Assembly: GCA_961205875.1 (NCBI GenBank)
Contig: OY540816.1
Coordinates: 15,138,701 to 15,202,700 of the forward strand
Direction: 5' to 3'
Source: Sialis fuliginosa
Taxonomy: Eukaryota > Arthropoda > Insecta > Megaloptera > Sialidae
Length of the DNA stretch: 64,000 nucleotides
Shown: positions 7,978-60,985 of the stretch, one piece after another
Layout: each line of letters opens with the position of its first letter
Position numbering within the stretch: the stretch's first letter is position 1
Made by a program: the position numbers and the translations under genes
Notes under the pieces: generated by a model
Databases searched by the model: none
Told to the model about the DNA's origin: nothing
Seen by the model: only the letters and a program-made list of their open reading frames with translations

Positions 7978-8271
7978 AGCCAAGTAAATGCACAGTACTT
8001 CCTCGTGTTAAATTCACCAGTTGACAATTTTAATCTAAATCTAAATACAAACGTCAAAATGCTATTTTGACCTTTGCATAATTTAGAATTAGATTTAAAT
8101 CGTCAAAAAAATTAAAATATACGAAAAAATTATCTTATGAAAAAATTCGAACTAATATTTTTTAGTAAAATTGTATAAAAATTAAATTGTTATAACACTA
8201 TCAGTTTTTATTTAAATTGTTGAATAATTGGCGAATTTAGCACGAGGAAGCACTGTGCATTTACTTGGCAG
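7978..8271. mobile_element. Inverted-repeat element sharing the family B terminus
   Basis: The left arm GCCAAGTAAATGCACAG...CTTCCTCGTG (7978-8015) is the reverse complement of the right arm CACGAGGAAGCACTGTGCAT...ACTTGGC (8234-8271). The right arm and its inner flank match the right end of the family B copy at 39280-39665. The central part (about 8057-8125) matches 57808-57875. It has no coding content, so it is a short non-autonomous element. Confidence 0.65.
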
Positions 8272-8762: not shown

Positions 8763-9138
8763 CAGGGCCGGTTTTAGTTATAGATATTATTATTAATAAT
8801 ATAATAGTAGTGACGTTCGAAATATAATTAATAACAGCTTAATTGTGTAGGCATCAGATTTTTTTTAAAAGGTATATTTCAGAATTTTTAATTTAAAATA
8901 TCAATATTTTTACATTATATTATTATATTTTTAGCCTAAGGATGATTCTATGATTCGAAAAGCTTGCTATTACTTTTTTTTAAATAAATTTCTGTCGTCT
9001 ACACAATTAAGCTGTTATTATTGATATTATTATAATATATTATATTCTAATAATTAAGCTGTTTTTTCATGTAGTTGTCTGCCACTCTTCCTTGGCCTGG
9101 CATCTCAGGTGGTCACCCCCCCTTTAAAGCTGGTACTG
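8763..9138. mobile_element. Candidate hAT-type relic containing a second inverted repeat
   Basis: The left end CAGGGCCGGTTTTAG and the right end AAAGCTGGTACTG are imperfect inverted repeats. No target duplication is seen, so the outer element is tentative. Inside it, TAACAGCTTAATTGTGTAG (about 8829-8849) and its reverse complement CTACACAATTAAGCTGTTA (about 8999-9018) bound an internal inverted-repeat unit. Confidence 0.4.
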
Positions 9139-13671: not shown

Positions 13672-14425
13672 CACTCTACGTCTTATTTTCTTGTATTTTT
13701 CGTCTATATTTGTATGACGAAATGAAATTCACTGCAGGAAATTTCACTAAAATTTTTTGAATTTTTGATTTCGTTAAAAGTATGTTTATTGTATAGAAAA
13801 TGACGTGAAAAGTTGAAATTTTCAAACCGCAGGCATGTATCTCGAACCGTTTTCGAGATATAGCCTCTCAAAGTTTTAGTTTTTTCAAATTTTTGGAGAA
13901 AAAAGGCCATAACTTTTAAACGAGTGGTCGGAATTGATTTTAGTTGACGGATTTGGAATCAGCGTGTCAAAATCTATATAACGACATGTATAATACCTTA
14001 AAACTCGAAAAAAAAAAATTCGCGAAAAATCGAAAAAATTCAAAGGGGTATACCTTAAAAAAATGTCGATTTTTGGCCAAAATTTTTTTGTCAAATTTTA
14101 AAGTATTATACATGTCATTATATAGATTTTGACACGCTGATTTCAAATCCGTCGACTAAAATCAATTCCGACAACGCGTTCAAAAGTTATGGCCTTTTTT
14201 CTCCAAAAATTTGAAAAACCTAAAACTTTGAGAGGCTATATCTCGAGAACGGTTCGAGATACAGACCTGCGGTTTGAAAATTTCAACTTTTCACGTCATT
14301 TTCTATACAATAAACATACTTTTAACGAAATCAAAAATTCGAAAGTTTTTTGTGAAATTTCCTACAGTGAACTTCAATTCGTCATACAAATATCGACTAA
14401 AATACAAGAAAATAAGACGTAGAAT
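13672..14425. repeat. Large near-perfect palindrome (~375-bp arms)
   Basis: The left arm (about 13672-14045) and the right arm (about 14052-14425) are reverse complements over almost their full length. They begin CTCTACGTCTTATTTTCTTG and end CAAGAAAATAAGACGTAGA. Long runs are conserved, for example GAGAAAAAAGGCCATAACTT on one side and its complement on the other. The spacer is only a few bases. Open frames on both strands here are mirror images of one another and are not genes. The high arm identity points to a recent fold-back element. Confidence 0.85.
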
Positions 14426-18302: not shown

Positions 18303-18531
18303 GGTACACAAAAAAGCGACCTATATAGCATTGTAGTGTCGAAATCCAAATTTTTGGAATTTTTTACTTACCAGTTGTTTTTGGGCTTGAATTTTGGGAT
18401 TCAAGCTCAAATAAAAAAAAACTGATAAGTAAAAAATTTCAAAAATTTGGATTTCGACTATGCTCGACCAATACTACAATGCTATATAGATCACTTTTTT
18501 GGCTCCGCTCTTTTTTTTGTGTAGCTGTGTA
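18303..18531. mobile_element. Family E hairpin element, copy 1
   Basis: The left arm (CACAAAAAAGCGACC, then TATATAGCATTGTAGT, then GAAATCCAAATTTTTGGAA) is mirrored by the right arm (AAATTTGGATTTCGAC, ACTACAATGCTATATAG, TTTTTTGGCTCCGC, ending GTGTAGCTGTGTA). The loop carries a second short inverted phrase around GAATTTTGGGATTC. Copies 2 and 3 lie at 56653-56859 and 60708-60985. It is non-coding. Confidence 0.75.
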
Positions 18532-24118: not shown

Positions 24119-26182
24119 TTAACATTGATCAGTTTTAGTATCCCTTATGTTAGTATGTGTTAATTTATTAACTATAAAAGAACTATTATATGCATAATTA
24201 TGATCCCATTGATCACATGTAAAAGGTCGTGTGTTACTATTGCATGCATAATTATGATCCCATTGTTCGTAATTAGAAGACCCAACGTTATTATTTGTTA
24301 ATTTATGATTTACAAATTCACATTTTTCGTTATTTAAAGTTTGTTTTTTAATATGTATTAATCTATGTTCATCTAAATTACTTTTCCATGGAGACTTGTA
24401 TTCACATAGGTCGCATTTAAAAGTTAGTGTATGTGTTAATTTATGACTTGCCAAATTACATTTAAACTTAGTGCTATATTTACATTGATTGCACTTAAAA
24501 GGTGGTGCGCCAATGTGTCCTAATTTATGATTTACTAAATTATATAATAATGTGCAACTATATTCACATTGGTCGCATTTAAACGGTCGTTCGTTAGTGT
24601 GATGTGTTAATTTATGTATTTCCAAAGACTTTTTCATTATATAGCTATATTTACATTGGTCGCACTTAAAGGGTCGTACGTCAGCATGTATTAATTTATG
24701 TCTTTCTAAAGATTGTTTCTGTGTGCAGCTAAATTCACAGTGTTCGCACTTGAAGGGTCGTACGTCAGCATGTGTTAGTTTATGTCTTTCTAAAGATTGT
24801 TTCTGTGTGCAGCTAAATTCACAGTGTTCGCACTTGAAGGGTCGTACGTCAGCATGTGTTAGTTTATGTCTTTCTAAAGATTGTTTCTGTGTGCAGCTAA
24901 ATTCACAGTGTTCGCACTTGAAGGGTCGTACGTCAGCATGTGTTAGTTTATGTCTTTCTAAAGATTGTTTCTGTGTGCAGCTAAATTCACAGTGTTCGCA
25001 CTTGAAGGGTCGTACGTCAGCATGTGTTAGTTTATGTCTTTCTAAAGATTGTTTCTGTGTGCAGCTAAATTCACAGTGTTTGCACTTGAAGGGTCGTACG
25101 TCAGCATGTGTTAATTTATGTCTTTTTAAAGATTGTTTCTGTGTGCAGCTATATTTACAGTGTTTGCACTTGAAGGGTCGTACGTCAGCATGTGTTAATT
25201 TATGTCTTTTTAAAGATTGTTTCTGTATGCAGCTAAATTCACAGTGTTCGCACTTGAAGAGTCGTACGTCAGTATGTGTTAGTTTATGTCTTTCTAAAAA
25301 TTGTTTCTGTGTGCAGCTATATTCACAGTGTTCGCACTTGAAGGGTCGTACGTCAGTATGTATTAATTTATGTGTTTCTAAAGACTGTTTCTGCGTACAG
25401 CTATATTTACAGTGTTCGCACTTAAATGGTCGCACGTCAGCATGTATTAATTTACGTTTTACATAATCACTTTTTGTTTTATACATATGTTTGTATACAT
25501 ATTGGTTACACTTAGAAGGTCGTTCGTCAGCATGTTTTTTTTTATGTCTTTCTAACGACTGTTTATGTGTAAAGGTACCTTCACAGTGTTCGCACTTAAA
25601 ATGTCGCACGTTAGTATGTCTTAATTGATGTTTTACTAAATACCTTTTTGTTTTACAGCTATATTCACATTGGTTACACTTAAAAGATCGTACATTAGCA
25701 TGTATTAATTTATGTTCTGCTAAATTTCCTTTTAGTTTGCAGCTATATTTACATTGATCGCACTTAAAAGGTCGTGAGTTAGTATGTGTTAATTTATGTA
25801 CTCTTAAATTTCCTTTTAGTTTGCAACTATATTTACATTGATCGCACTTAAAAGGTCGTGAGTTTGTATGTGTTAATTTATGTCTTACTAAATACGTTTC
25901 TTTTTTACAGATATATTCACATTTATCGCACTTAAAAGTTACGTTAGTTTGTATACATTTATGCCAATCTAAATAACATTTTCGTATACAACTAAATTCA
26001 CAATGCTCACATTTAAATTTTTTTAAATAACTTTGTTTAGTGAAATTGGACTTATTAGTAACTATTTTATTATCAAACTCTGTTTTTAATTCATTGTTTA
26101 TTATTGTGTTAGTGCATTTAGTTTCTTCATTTTGTTCTTGTGTATTTAACAGTTGGTTGTCTTCCTTACCAACCAAATCTTC
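24119..26182 (-). CDS. Multi-C2H2 zinc-finger protein, coding exon 2
   Basis: The exon begins after a clear acceptor (TGTTTTTCAG|GAAGAT) and ends at TAA (24121-24119). It supplies residues 83-769 of a predicted 769-residue nuclear DNA-binding protein. Twenty C2H2-type units run from about residue 138 to 692, spaced 28 residues with ADVRP/TNSRP-type linkers. Unit 1 has Gln for the last His. Unit 7 lacks one Cys and one His. The other 18 keep all ligands. The usual Phe of the finger core is often Cys (FSCTQ). In units 12-16 the helix contact residues are the same (Gln -1, Gln 2, Ser 3, Arg 6). After unit 20 the array decays into fragments, including a duplicated QWDHNYA phrase. The frame has no ATG near its start and depends on exon 1. 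Its target and function are unknown; a transcriptional or chromatin role is inferred from the family. Confidence 0.9.
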   Translation of the reverse strand, partial: EDLVGKEDNQLLNTQEQNEETKCTNTIINNELKTEFDNKIVTNKSNFTKQSYLKKFKCEHCEFSCIRKCYLDWHKCIQTNVTFKCDKCEYICKKETYLVRHKLTHTNSRPFKCDQCKYSCKLKGNLRVHKLTHTNSRPFKCDQCKYSCKLKGNLAEHKLIHANVRSFKCNQCEYSCKTKRYLVKHQLRHTNVRHFKCEHCEGTFTHKQSLERHKKKHADERPSKCNQYVYKHMYKTKSDYVKRKLIHADVRPFKCEHCKYSCTQKQSLETHKLIHTDVRPFKCEHCEYSCTQKQFLERHKLTHTDVRLFKCEHCEFSCIQKQSLKRHKLTHADVRPFKCKHCKYSCTQKQSLKRHKLTHADVRPFKCKHCEFSCTQKQSLERHKLTHADVRPFKCEHCEFSCTQKQSLERHKLTHADVRPFKCEHCEFSCTQKQSLERHKLTHADVRPFKCEHCEFSCTQKQSLERHKLTHADVRPFKCEHCEFSCTQKQSLERHKLIHADVRPFKCDQCKYSYIMKKSLEIHKLTHHTNERPFKCDQCEYSCTLLYNLVNHKLGHIGAPPFKCNQCKYSTKFKCNLASHKLTHTLTFKCDLCEYKSPWKSNLDEHRLIHIKKQTLNNEKCEFVNHKLTNNNVGSSNYEQWDHNYACNSNTRPFTCDQWDHNYAYNSSFIVNKLTHTNIRDTKTDQC
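24701..25080 (-). repeat. 84-bp tandem repeat inside the finger array, base-identical units
   Basis: Four complete 84-bp units (24701-24784, 24785-24868, 24869-24952, 24953-25036) and the first 44 bp of a fifth are identical at every base, silent positions included. Each codes for one finger plus linker. Flanking units on both sides differ by several bases. This is the pattern left by very recent unequal crossing-over or gene conversion. An assembly artefact in copy number cannot be ruled out. Confidence 0.9.
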
Positions 26183-26366
26183 CTGAAAAACAATAATTAA
26201 TTACTCACGATAAAAAGTTATTATAAATATGCCTCCAAAACTGCATAAATAGTCATTTATAGTGTCGTTTTTAGTCATTTTAGTAAAGTACGTGTAACAA
26301 TAATACAACTATGATGACAAGTACTAGAAGGTATATTTATATTAACTTTTAATCTTATTTTTAATT

Positions 26367-26820: not shown

Positions 26821-27007
26821 ATTATACTATAGTATACTTTTCAGTGGTTTTTCGGTTTTTTTTTAAGTGTTTTTTTTTTAGTCAAGTGTCTATAGATTAT
26901 GATTCATTAATTAACGCTTTTGTACATTTAATTAAACAAGAGTCCAAAACTGGGGTATGATCCAAAACGGGTGCCAGTACCTTACCAACATCTGTATTGT
27001 ATATTTA

Positions 27008-27139
27008 AGGCCTCTATACACCACCTAATCTGCAGGGCCGATATGTCGGGAGGTAGAGTTGGGGGTACTGCAGATTGCAGTACCCCCACTCTACCTCCCA
27101 ACAAATCGGCTCTGCAGACTGGGTAGTGTATAGAGGCCT
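27008..27139. mobile_element. 132-bp hairpin MITE, Harbinger-like
   Basis: The two halves are near-perfect reverse complements along the entire 132 bp, beginning AGGCCTCTATACACCACC and ending GGGTAGTGTATAGAGGCCT. TTA stands on both sides (27005-27007 and 27140-27142), matching the 3-bp target duplication typical of PIF/Harbinger elements. It is GC-richer than its surroundings and sits in the zinc-finger intron. Transcribed, it would fold into one long hairpin. Confidence 0.8.
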
Positions 27140-27192
27140 TTAGATGGAAAAAAACAAAGTCAAATCATTACCATCACATAATTATATGGTTA

Positions 27193-49173: not shown

Positions 49174-50632
49174 TAGGGTTTGCAATCCCGCAATGCGGGA
49201 TCCCGCATTCCCGCGGGATCCCGCACGTTTTGGAGATCTGCGGATCCCGCACTAAAAGTGCGGGATCCGCGCGGAATTATTTTAACATTGAATTTGTATG
49301 TCGCATGCGTTTTGAATACTTGTATAGCGTAAATATGAATAAAAAAAGGTAACAATTTTGAAAAAAAAATTAAGGTTGAGATGACTGAATATGAAAATAG
49401 TGAAGTAAATTATATCTCTTGTTCACGATTAGTTAAGTGGTTACACTGAGTGCGACTCAGGCGACGAAAGAAGCTCGAACAGCCCCCAGATTACAAAAAA
49501 AAACATAAAAAATACAAAAATTTAGAAGAAGAATAGCAGATTAAATGAAAGTTAACCACAAAAATGTAATACACAAAATTCGACACGATATTTTTTTAAC
49601 AGTATTGTCCCTAAAATACAACCGTAAATAATGATATTTAGTGGTTTAGTTTTACGTGACATACCGTATATACTAGGGTGTTTTTTAATTTTTTTTTCGG
49701 TCCCGCGAGCCTATGTTTTAGCTTTGGATCAAAAGTTAATTGTCCCAAAATTTCAGACTCATAGATCAAACCTGTGGACGGCGCAAACCGAGTCATTTTC
49801 CCATTTGATTAACATGGGAAAAATTACTCTTTTACTTATGCGTGAATATCTCGTTGAAAAATTTATTTATTTTAATTTTTTACAGTAGCATATCATAGAG
49901 AATTAAATTTCTTACAAAAAAGATCCCAAGTGCTCAAATCATAGATCGAATATTTTAAAAGATATGTTCGTTTAAACATTATCATAAAAAGTAAAATCCA
50001 ATTTTTATGATAATTTTTAAACAAACATTTCTTAAAATTTATTGGATTTATGAATTGAGCACTTAATTCTCTACAAAATATTCCCCTGAGAAATTTTCAA
50101 AAAAAATTGTTTTCAACGAGATATTCACGCGAAAGTAAAAAAGTAATTTTTCCCATGTTAATCAAATGGGAAAAAGACTCGGTTTGCGCCGTCCACAGGT
50201 TTGATCAATGAGTTTGAAATTTTGGGAAAATTAACTTTTAATTCAAATCTAAAACAGGCCTGCGGGAAACAAGGGCTAATTTATACGCAACGAAGGAGTT
50301 AAAAAAATTGAAATGGATAATCGAACAAAAAGACAAAAGTAGTTAGAAGCATCTTGTTCTTGTATCTAACATATTAGACAACCTCCTATTTACAGGTGTA
50401 TTTTATGGATTTTACATCGGTCTATACGGTACGAGTTACGTTTACGTATCATATGTTACCACTATGAAAATATTTTTCATGTTAATTGTCATGTTAACTA
50501 AATAATAGTAACATTAAGTATGAATAACAAAATTTTTGGAAAAACTGCGGGATCCCGCGGGATCCCGCGGGATTTGAGAATTTCCCGCAAAAATCCCGCG
50601 GGAAAAAAAAGTCTGCGGGATTGCAAACCCTA
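49174..50632. mobile_element. 1.46-kb hAT-type element inserted in family A
   Basis: The ends TAGGGTTTGCAATCCCGC and GCGGGATTGCAAACCCTA are perfect 18-bp inverted repeats, flanked by ACTACGAC on each side (49166-49173 and 50633-50640). The uninterrupted family A copy at 44363-44900 has this octamer once, which proves the duplication. Subterminal DNA is packed with GCGGGATCCCGC-type palindromes on both sides. It has no transposase frame and holds a palindrome (49698-50271). Confidence 0.9.
49698..50271. repeat. Palindromic element inside the hAT element
   Basis: Arms of about 285 bp meet near 49990. GGTCCCGCGAGCCTATGTTT at the left answers AAAACAGGCCTGCGGGAAAC at the right. GGACGGCGCAAACCGAGTC and GACTCGGTTTGCGCCGTCC are exact complements, as are CCCATTTGATTAACATGGG and CCCATGTTAATCAAATGGG. 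The 85-codon plus-strand frame at 49631-49888 is part of one arm and not a gene. Confidence 0.8.
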
Positions 50633-56652: not shown

Positions 56653-56859
56653 GCTTGAATTTTGGGCTTAGGTTGAATTTTTCCAAAAAAGGGGGTGTGG
56701 TGCAAAAAGGAAACTTATATGGCATTGTAATATTGCTCGAGGATAGTCGAAATCAAAATTTTTAAAATTTGGATTTCGACTATGCTCGATCAATACTACA
56801 ATGCTATATAGTAGGTCGCTTTTTTGGCTCCGCATTTATTTTTTTGTGTGTAGTTGTAT
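56653..56859. mobile_element. Family E hairpin element, copy 2
   Basis: GCTTGAATTTTGGGCTTAGG and TTGAATTTTTCC lead into the TATGGCATTGTAATATTGCTCG arm (as two short matches), mirrored by GCTCGATCAATACTACAATG and GCTATATAG, then TTTTTTGGCTCCGCA and GTGTAGTTGTA. It is more compact than copy 1. Confidence 0.65.
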
Positions 56860-57875: not shown

Positions 57876-58697
57876 GCACGTCACACTTTGTAAACCCCCA
57901 GCCTCCCCTTTAATATGTGTCGTAATTTACGGATAATCCCTTAGGTATAATTATAAATATTATCATTACTTTGTTTCTGGAGTTACTCAGTTTTGCTCTT
58001 GAACAACAATAGGTATATACAAAATATATATTTTGTAACATTAAAAAATTCCATAAAACCATAAATATTTCATATGTTATAAAAATCCGAAGTTTCCATA
58101 TATATTTTACAAACACATTACACATGTACTCGAACACGAGTCAGAAATACCAACTACATCGTGTTATGAAACTTTTTATGCAAAAACTTCAGCGGTGTAA
58201 AAAACGTAAAATTCCCAGACCACCCGTAGCGTATCCGAGAAGTACGTTCTTAAAGAAAAATGAAAATATATAATCCCATTTTCGATTTGGCTGAACATAT
58301 ATCACTTATTGGAGGAAACCGAATGAAGTTGTAGATCATACGTGGGAGGAATTATTCGGAAGTTTTAGTTAAAAGGATTCGAAAGTTATGAATACAATTT
58401 TATTTTCAATTACCTTTGGTATTTGTTTGATTTATTCATCTGTTAAATCGTATTGTCATATATACGTATGGTTTATACATTTTCAACAACGAAAAATGTA
58501 TGCTAACATATTTGATAAGTGAAGTATTTTTCAAATTACAAACAATTACACCAATATTAAATTAAAATTTATTAATCGTATTTTTTTTTGTATTTTATAT
58601 TATTAATGCTTCATTGATTTAACTCACAAGGGAACTACCAGACGTCGCACCAATTTGTTTAAAAAAAATTAGGGTTGTAGTAGTGGCATAGACAAAC
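57876..58697. other. AT-rich intergenic DNA
   Basis: No gene recognised. Confidence 0.5.
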
Positions 58698-58980
58698 CTA
58701 CACACCAAGCCGTTTGACGAAAAACTCATAAACAAACGAGAAAAAAATTATGAAATTCCTCTGAAAATTTGCTTAAACATATGTACCTATCCAACACTAG
58801 CTGTGGCTCGGTCGTTAGCGCTACGGGCTAACAAACGTAAATAGCCGGGTTCGATCCTCGGTACGATCAATTTTTTTTTTATTTTATTAGGTACATATGT
58901 TTAAGCGAATTTACAGAGGAATTTCATAACTTTTTTTCTCGTTTGTTTATGAGTTTTCCGTAAAACAACTTGGTGTGTAG
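58698..58980. mobile_element. Fold-back element with a tRNA-like unit in its loop
   Basis: Arms of about 91 bp (58698-58788 and 58889-58980) are near-complementary: CTACACACCAAG/CTTGGTGTGTAG, AAACTCATAAACAAACGAG/CTCGTTTGTTTATGAGTTTT and AAACATATGTACCT/AGGTACATATGTTT. The 100-bp loop between them is filled by a tRNA-like RNA polymerase III unit. No target duplication was recognised. Non-coding for protein. Confidence 0.8.
58799..58880 (+). ncRNA. tRNA-like RNA polymerase III unit (A box, B box, T10)
   Basis: TGGCTCGGTCGTTAGCGC fits the tRNA D-arm and A box. 33 bp further, GGGTTCGATCCTCGG fits the T-arm and B box, with CCGGG/CTCGG able to pair as the T stem. A run of ten T follows 10 bp later (58871-58880), a pol III terminator. 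The anticodon arm and acceptor stem do not fold as a standard tRNA, so it is a tRNA-derived or SINE-head sequence rather than a decoding tRNA. Transcription is inferred from the promoter boxes only. Confidence 0.6.
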
Positions 58981-60707
58981 AATTGTCAGTAAAGGACATA
59001 ATTAAAAATCTAATATTTCTAGGTTAAACGGTTCAGTAGATATAAGACTGTGACAGACAGAAAGACAGTGTTGATTTTATCATCACAGTGTTAAATTCAT
59101 TGTTTTCGGATTTCGATACGAAACACTAAAAAAAATGGAATAACATTTTTTTTTTCAAATTAACATAATTTAAATAAATAAATAAACTCATACAATATTG
59201 ATTTAAATTGCATTAAATATTCTAAATATAAAAGCTAAATACGTGCCTGATCAAAAGTTACATCGAATTCTATCTTCAATCGACAAAAAGTTACAAAACC
59301 AAATACAAAAAAAATCCTCTTCATTGCATTAAAAAGCCATAAATATAAAGAAAAATAACTGTTCTATATATTGATTCGTATATGTTTTCCAATACACAAA
59401 ATAAATATTATCTCAAGCATTTAAATCCGCAAGATTTTCGACGATCTATCCGTGACTGCTTTTGTATACTTTTTACATTCGAGTGTTTGGTTTTTTACAG
59501 ACAACAGAAAAACTGTTTTAACATTTTATTCTCTTTCATGGATTATTTCCATGTTTTCTTGCTACTCTTGCAGAATTCTGGATATTTTTTATTCGTCGAT
59601 TACGTTCTTTATGTTTATTTTCTTTTTATATACGTAAAAATAATATTTACATAATTTAAAATAATTTGCAGTTCAGTTATTTAGATAACTTTCAATGTTG
59701 TTTTCTATAAAAAAATTGACGTAATTTCATTGGTCTGATAAAAAATATCTTCCATTAGTACCACCGGACTTTCTTATACGTAATACTGAAAGTGTACGTA
59801 CGTATATATTTATATAAAACAAATATTTCTGGCTAACTGATACAAAATATAATAAAATTTCATAAAACATCAGTTATACAAAATAACCTTCTCTTCAGAT
59901 AGACAGACCGACACACATACAAGACATACATCATGGCAAAAATAGTTAGAAAATATTCAAGTGAGGTCAAAATTTCCATCAATATCTCTATGAAAAAAAA
60001 ATCAGATTAACAATACTTTCTTATACTCCCATATGTATGTATATTTCAAAGAAAGAAGTTAATGTTAGTTTCAGTTACTTTTTGCAAATTAGCATTTCTA
60101 AACTTTCTAAACATGCAATTATATTTTACATACATACAATATTTGCATACTTCTTGGAAGTAAAAGTTATTCAGAACCATAACCACGATCTTATACTGAA
60201 TTTAACCTTAAAAATCTAAACAAATATTACAACGGAAGTCTCAAACAAAACATGAAGAGGAAATAAGACATTTCAATACATGACAAGTTGAATTTTACTT
60301 ATATCAATTTTGTTTTATGTTCAGACTTGTTGGTTTGTGTCGTCGCAAGTTTGGTGAACATAAAAACACCAATATACGAATAATGTTGGACTTGCGAGAC
60401 ACATTCACACACACACACACACACACTATACTCGTATGTAATACGATATATGTATAGATAACATTGATACCAACATACACGGAAAGAATATGTGAAATTT
60501 ATTCTTTTGTGATCGCAACCATACACAAGGAAATAAATATTGTATTATGGATAACAATCGTCGTTGTCACAAACTTCTACCTCCCCGTATGTATGTACAT
60601 ATGCCAATGATGGCAAATAGGAGACACGCGGAGTGCCATATCGTATGTACTAATATGAAAGATTTTCGGCGACGTGACTTGTTTCCAATGTGTGTTAAAA
60701 TTTTTGG
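58981..60707. other. AT-rich intergenic DNA
   Basis: No gene supported; the frames at 59382-59654 are Phe/Leu/Tyr-rich chance frames. A (CA)n microsatellite lies at about 60404-60426. Confidence 0.5.
60404..60426 (+). repeat. (CA)n microsatellite
   Basis: About eleven consecutive CA units following CATTCA. Confidence 0.9.
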
Positions 60708-60985
60708 AATTTTTCCAAAAAAACATTGTAGTATTGGTCGAGCATAGTCGAAATCCAAATTTTTGGAATTTTCTGCTTATCAGTTTTTTATTTTTTATTT
60801 GAGCTTGAATTTTGGATTTAGGTTGAATTTTTCCAAGTTAGCTAAACCAAAAATTGAAGCCTAAATAAAAAAAAACTGGTAAACAGAAAATTCAAAAAAT
60901 TTAGATTTAGACTATGCTCGACTAATACTACAATGCTATATAGGCCGCTTTTTTGGCTCCGCACTTTTTTTTGTGTAGCTGTGTA
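60708..60985. mobile_element. Family E hairpin element, copy 3
   Basis: The left arm CATTGTAGTATTGGTCGAGC and ATAGTCGAAATCCAAATTTT is mirrored by ATTTAGATTTAGACTATGC, TCGACTAATACTACAATG and CTATATAGGCCGC. It then has TTTTTTGGCTCCGCAC and GTGTAGCTGTGTA at the right. Its loop keeps the GCTTGAATTTTGGATTTAGG phrase of copy 2. Confidence 0.75.

Follow-up and report, generated by a model that had tools for sequence, protein, structure and literature searches.

A decayed copy of a small cut-and-paste transposon family with a tRNA-like stretch between mirror-image arms in Sialis fuliginosa

Structure of the element and its surroundings

The window, that is, the whole analysed stretch of 64,000 nucleotides of the Sialis fuliginosa genome (C8:15138701-15202700), contains an element comprising two inverted arms and a loop, with the following parts:

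58623..58626, no strand assigned: left target half-site CTCA, which fits C|TNA (the family pattern being C|TNA|G) and adjoins the left end
58627..58791, plus strand: left arm, a terminal inverted repeat that starts with CAAGGGAACTACCAG; its blastn alignment with the consensus arm spans 169 positions at 93% identity
58792..58887, plus strand: loop with the tRNA-like unit, delimited by blastn with the consensus and by the alignment of copies
58804..58814, plus strand: A box, TGGCTCGGTCG
58848..58857, plus strand: B box, GGTTCGATCC
58871..58880, plus strand: run of ten T, candidate pol III terminator
58888..59021, minus strand: right arm, clear up to approximately 58987 and weak up to 59021

The original prediction had placed the arms and the loop at 58698-58980, with an A box, a B box and a T10 run in the loop. 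Both arms and loop are present, and the boxes and the T-run could be located at the positions listed above, but the interval was too narrow: the left end lies at 58627, and the right arm can be followed to approximately 58987, and weakly to 59021. The same extent, approximately 58627-59021, is given by blastn with the family consensus described below. In a mechanical search for arm pairing, 58691-58747 was found to pair with 58931-58987 (57 nt, 89% complementary), and 58741-58789 with 58888-58936 (49 nt, 94%). The loop segment 58792-58880 corresponds to positions 17-105 of the consensus loop (92%, blastn), the initial 16 loop positions being absent from this copy. The outer portion of the right arm is also missing and is gone past 59021 at the latest; since the outermost 38 consensus positions of this arm are unaligned, the window copy has no readable right end or target site duplication. 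The element is a single decayed copy from a family of small cut-and-paste transposons, in which a tRNA-like stretch lies between mirror-image arms.

The region covered by the window is rich in fold-back units. There is a near-palindrome at 13697-14402, with 350-bp arms (91% complementary) separated by a 6-nt spacer, which is a fold-back without the CAAGGG start, and a fold-back at 49714-50256 with 166-bp arms (89%), in which a second inverted repeat is nested at 49928-50064. Further inverted-repeat pairs of 44-83 bp are found at 7979-8269, 8821-9028, 18338-18458, 27007-27140, 56716-56810 and 60715-60944. The minus strand also has an open frame for a 693-aa C2H2 zinc-finger protein (24119-26200), under which lies an 84-bp tandem array of approximately 16 copies (24551-25936).

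The repeat family and its consensus

A search of the S. fuliginosa genome (392 Mb, 20 contigs) with the 283-bp sequence of the original prediction yielded 330 candidates, of which 40 were scored. The first copy set (n = 40), consisting of the window copy (L001) and loci L009-L047, was aligned together with the flanks, and the similarity extends outward past the 283-bp unit. The majority consensus is 443 bp long and consists of a left arm of 169 bp, a loop of 105 bp and a right arm of 169 bp; it is based on 64 rows, representing 63 distinct copies (L060 and L074 are the same copy), with the insertion-bearing loci L068-L070 excluded. The consensus arms, each derived separately, are inverted repeats complementary at 169 of 169 positions, while the majority is weaker at some individual columns in the outer part of the right arm. 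The end of the consensus element reads CAAGGGGACCACCAGACCCTTGTCGCACC. The terminal 36-mer, with at most three mismatches allowed, occurs at 164 places in the genome, compared to none for the reversed control. The arms and the loop are one repeated mobile unit. This agrees with the suggestion, made from the window alone, of a single many-copy unit, given the 40 copies scored among the 330 candidates; the opposite possibility, that only one armed copy exists, is ruled out, as many genomic copies carry arms.

Insertion site and target duplication

The flanks were surveyed in 80 loci, L002-L008 being excluded as repeats of L009-L015. Two scorable ends were available in 39 of the 80 loci, and 28 of these 39 have a 3-bp flanking duplication, whereas duplications of at least 4 bp were observed in none of the 39. 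After removal of the duplicate row (L060 = L074), the 3-bp duplication is present in 27 of 38 distinct copies. In the 28 copies with TNA flanking both sides, the middle base agrees in 26 cases, while 8.8 are expected from shuffling, and the value of 26 was reached in none of 20,000 shuffles. Among the 38 distinct copies, the outer C is found in 27, the outer G in 30, and both in 20. The C and G flanks together with the TNA duplication therefore define the target site as C|TNA|G, and the family inserts at this site, duplicating TNA.

The 3-bp TNA duplication initially made PIF/Harbinger a candidate, which was ranked behind Tc4/Tc5, as the site is that of Tc4 and a relative with the Tc5 transposase domain was found (see below). 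C|TNA|G is described as the Tc4 target, of which only TNA is duplicated (PMC11071193). This site and the long arms thus point to a non-autonomous DNA transposon of the Tc4/Tc5 type. Our preferred explanation, to which we assign a probability of approximately 0.75, is a non-autonomous Tc4/Tc5-type long-arm fold-back MITE with a tRNA-derived interior, which would be the head of a SINE or else a tRNA gene that is broken but accompanied by its terminator.

A Tc5-type relative and the search for an autonomous partner

The Tc5 transposase C-terminal domain (Transp_Tc5_C, PF04236) has three matches in the same genome, at L112, L113 and L114, all of which are decayed loci. L113 (C7:202300-207900) is an element holding this domain, with inverted arms of 253 aligned bp (75%). 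Its left end, CTTA|CAAGGGAACC, lies 28 bp outside these arms, and the outer 28 bases of the two ends show no alignment to each other. By eye, an end on the right side together with a TTA duplication becomes legible only if the tip is assumed to have lost its first base, and this assignment is tentative. The likeness between the arm of L113 and that of the family is confined to approximately ten terminal bases, and beyond these the arms are unaligned. At the two other loci bearing the domain, L112 and L114, no end like that of L113 was found. The left end of L113 may be taken as some support for the membership of the 443-bp family in the Tc4/Tc5 group.

The same composite could instead be moved by a NuwaII-type transposase of the PHIS group, which is related to PIF/Harbinger. 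NuwaII is reported to use C|TNA|G as well, so that in target site, by which the two are compared here, it matches the present family, while its transposase family differs from that of Tc4/Tc5 (PMC4482050). Against this, the element carrying the Tc5 domain in the same genome shows the left end CTTA|CAAGGGAACC, and the arms of PIF/Harbinger elements, according to the same source, usually begin with A or G (PMC4482050). We consider a NuwaII-type mover unlikely; because the right end of L113 is doubtful, the Tc4/Tc5 reading is held with less confidence, and the NuwaII one with more, than would otherwise be the case.

The hunt for an autonomous partner covered 33 loci of 5.0-5.2 kb (L075-L107), taken at ends among the matches listed; 64 of the 164 places of the terminal 36-mer lie outside these matches, and any partner whose ends have diverged would escape. 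No Tc4/Tc5 transposase was recognised by eye in the open frames of 20 of the 33 loci, this set taking in L075-L087 and 13 loci that have no loop sequence or are one-armed. The loci in which the similarity ends early look like truncations, because mostly the arm is the only part common to them.

Four loci bearing a DDE_1 domain (L108-L111) were also considered, and no matching pair of ends was found at these. In two of the four a Cys/His tail was seen by eye, which we take to be PHD-like; L108, one DDE_1 locus that was read, terminates in such a presumably PHD-like Cys/His stretch. DDE_1 transposases at C1:22914816, C4:30665337, C12:3314351 and other places have the same scores and the same open-frame lengths, and these repeated loci are apparently young pogo-like families.

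Association of the loop with the arms

Fifteen of the best 40 loop matches in the genome were already among the first 40 copies, and 20 of the remaining 25 were examined, all 20 having arm sequence. In 336,103 bases, comprising the fetched loci and the window, there are 85 loop matches (one copy, L060 = L074, being counted double), and in 83 of them an arm match lies at most 120 bp away; this sample was picked around the element, and armless copies are possible elsewhere. The two matches that look armless are situated at locus ends: L063 turned out to be armed once the locus was extended, and L014 is cut by the end of the locus. In this sample, the loop travels with the arms. The idea of a tRNA-like head fused with a DNA transposon, put forward in the original prediction, is borne out by the behaviour of the unit.

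Divergence of the loop and the arms

If the loop were functional for the element, it would be an active pol III unit or an insulator under selection and not a passenger. Measured over the first copy set, the tRNA-like part and the inner left arm differ from the consensus equally, at 6.8% each; the values are 7.6% for the loop part ahead of the tRNA-like part and 9.7% for the inner right arm. The outer arms of these copies diverge more (12.4% and 23.0%), probably as a result of truncation and of misalignment of the flanks. This set shows no sign of selection on the loop, its tRNA-like part having diverged to the same degree as the inner left arm. The four copies chosen by their ends also argue against function, with 8.2% in the tRNA-like part versus 4.3% in the inner left arm.

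A functional loop would be favoured by the divergence pooled over 64 rows with CpG left out, which is 5.6% for the tRNA-like part, 6.5% for the inner left arm and 14.2% for the inner right arm, but this pool takes in 20 copies chosen by their loop, in which the tRNA-like part is only 4.4% diverged, lower as such a choice predicts. On the same side, the B-box pattern persists in 43 of 64 rows (it is missing in 21), and, of 33 loci selected by a single listed end, 18 retain loop sequence, while the remaining 15 include 12 in which an arm is seen on one strand only. The T-run could be parsed in 52 rows and has at least five T in 42 of them. Conversely, derivatives without a loop exist (L082 and L093), and a unit that moves by cut-and-paste retains its middle without selection. 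We regard a functional loop as improbable.

Since the loop is as diverged as the inner left arm in the first copy set, nothing shows that the promoter is important. The divergence pattern fits neutral decay of a passenger loop, and a weak effect is possible. It is highly improbable that the loop is a live pol III unit, with the element bearing a promoter of its own at the apex of a palindrome able to form a cruciform; if this were true, pol III factors bound at the apex would affect how the element is excised, which target it enters or how it is silenced, and the tRNA mimic would be a part of the transposition machinery.

Homogenisation of the two arms within a copy was not seen: at 214 positions both arms of a copy depart from the consensus, at 101 of these in the same way, and when arms of different copies are paired the expected numbers are 218.6 and 100.8.

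The tRNA-like character of the loop

The A and B boxes of the consensus are 44 nt apart, which is the spacing in tRNAs. When the consensus loop was shuffled 200,000 times with its dinucleotides preserved and either strand was scanned with loosely written box patterns, an A and B pair at tRNA-like spacing turned up 298 times; the box pair is more than a product of chance. When the consensus loop is folded as a tRNA, the T stem pairs at 5 of 5 positions, the anticodon stem at 4 of 4 and the D stem at 3 of 4, with an anticodon loop of 8 nt, and just 1 of 7 positions is paired in the acceptor stem. The would-be acceptor strands (consensus positions 191-197 and 256-262) are unpaired, and the 3' strand read backwards resembles the 5' strand (CTAGCGG, TGCGATC); this near-repeat is probably a coincidence.

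ARAGORN called no tRNA in the window and none in 60 loci. In the Rfam search of 58600-59100 there was no tRNA at E <= 1, the sole match in this stretch being TeloSII_ncR33 (16.4 bits, compared to the gathering score of 105), which is weak and unrelated; Rfam also gave no matches in 16 loci and none in a piece of L011. Judged from these searches, the loop is not a tRNA gene, and the possibility raised against the original prediction, namely an intact captured tRNA gene, does not apply by either program. A degenerate loop pattern had no matches in viral contigs.

The lack of calls by ARAGORN in the 60 loci and by Rfam in the 16 loci, the piece of L011 and, as to tRNA, the window, together with the acceptor pairing of 1 of 7, would be expected if the boxes were chance matches within an unrelated spacer. 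Such a coincidence is very unlikely in view of the rarity of the box pair in the shuffles, the pairing of the three other stems, the 44-nt spacing and the T-run close behind. The loop in all likelihood derives from a tRNA, judging by its boxes and stems, and resembles a SINE head, or else a tRNA gene that has lost the 5' acceptor strand and kept a terminator.

Mode of transposition

For the preferred Tc4/Tc5-type MITE, we suggest that a transposase of this type acting in trans would recognise the CAAGGG(A/G)ACC ends, excise the element and reinsert it elsewhere. The tRNA-like part would have been captured once, in the founder, and copied along as a passenger thereafter. In principle, initiation by pol III close to the A box, with termination at the T-run, could yield an RNA of approximately 80 nt; because the T-run lies inside the loop, such an RNA would consist of loop sequence only, and no hairpin RNA of the arms would be formed.

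The boxes at tRNA spacing and the T-run would suit a SINE as the mover, with the tRNA-like head driving pol III and the entire fold-back copied via RNA, but this is extremely unlikely, as the transcript would exclude the left arm and end in the loop before the right one, the 3-bp duplications at C|TNA|G are unlike the long variable ones of retroposition, the consensus has precise inverted repeats at both ends and no A-rich tail, and retroposition marks (long variable duplications, an A-rich or LINE-like tail) are absent from the ends of the unit in both the survey of flanks and the consensus.

Relation to known elements and significance

DNA transposons of the Tc4/Tc5 type (TcMar-Tc4) were first described from C. 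elegans, and Tc4, to go by the title of Yuan et al. 1991, was reportedly noted for an unusual fold-back structure. The present family resembles this type in its long inverted arms and fold-back form, and differs in being 443 bp long and non-coding, with a tRNA-like unit in the loop. The C|TNA|G target with duplication of TNA only is also shared (PMC11071193).

A comparable composite has been reported from Heliconius, where subfamily 3 of the tRNA-derived SINE Metulj is embedded in the non-autonomous Mariner element nMar-16_Hm; the latter has 7,770 copies, and in the authors' account this carrier likely spread the subfamily (PMC4016481). In both cases a tRNA-derived pol III unit resides within a non-autonomous DNA transposon (PMC4016481). 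The carrier in Heliconius is a Mariner, whereas that of the present family is most likely of the Tc4/Tc5 type, and Metulj 3, as described there, is a SINE with a non-tRNA tail, whereas the present loop is head-like and terminates in a T-run. The original prediction also considered that the small mobile unit might be of a new type; this does not hold, since the arms are terminal inverted repeats, most likely of the Tc4/Tc5 type, and a SINE-in-transposon composite is already published (PMC4016481). Thus, SINE-in-MITE composites are known, and the present family is of the same kind, most likely with a Tc4/Tc5-type carrier. In our literature search, which was mostly at the level of listings, a MITE of the Tc4 type whose loop is tRNA-like did not come up. 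References on Tc4-type elements are few, by the account of PMC11071193, and a numerous family with the C|TNA|G signature is therefore a useful added example.

The family illustrates that a cut-and-paste transposon can disperse a tRNA-like pol III unit across a genome without retroposition. Annotation of SINEs and pseudo-tRNAs can be misled by tRNA-like units spread in this way, and, if the loop is transcribed, the family would have scattered pol III sites over the genome.
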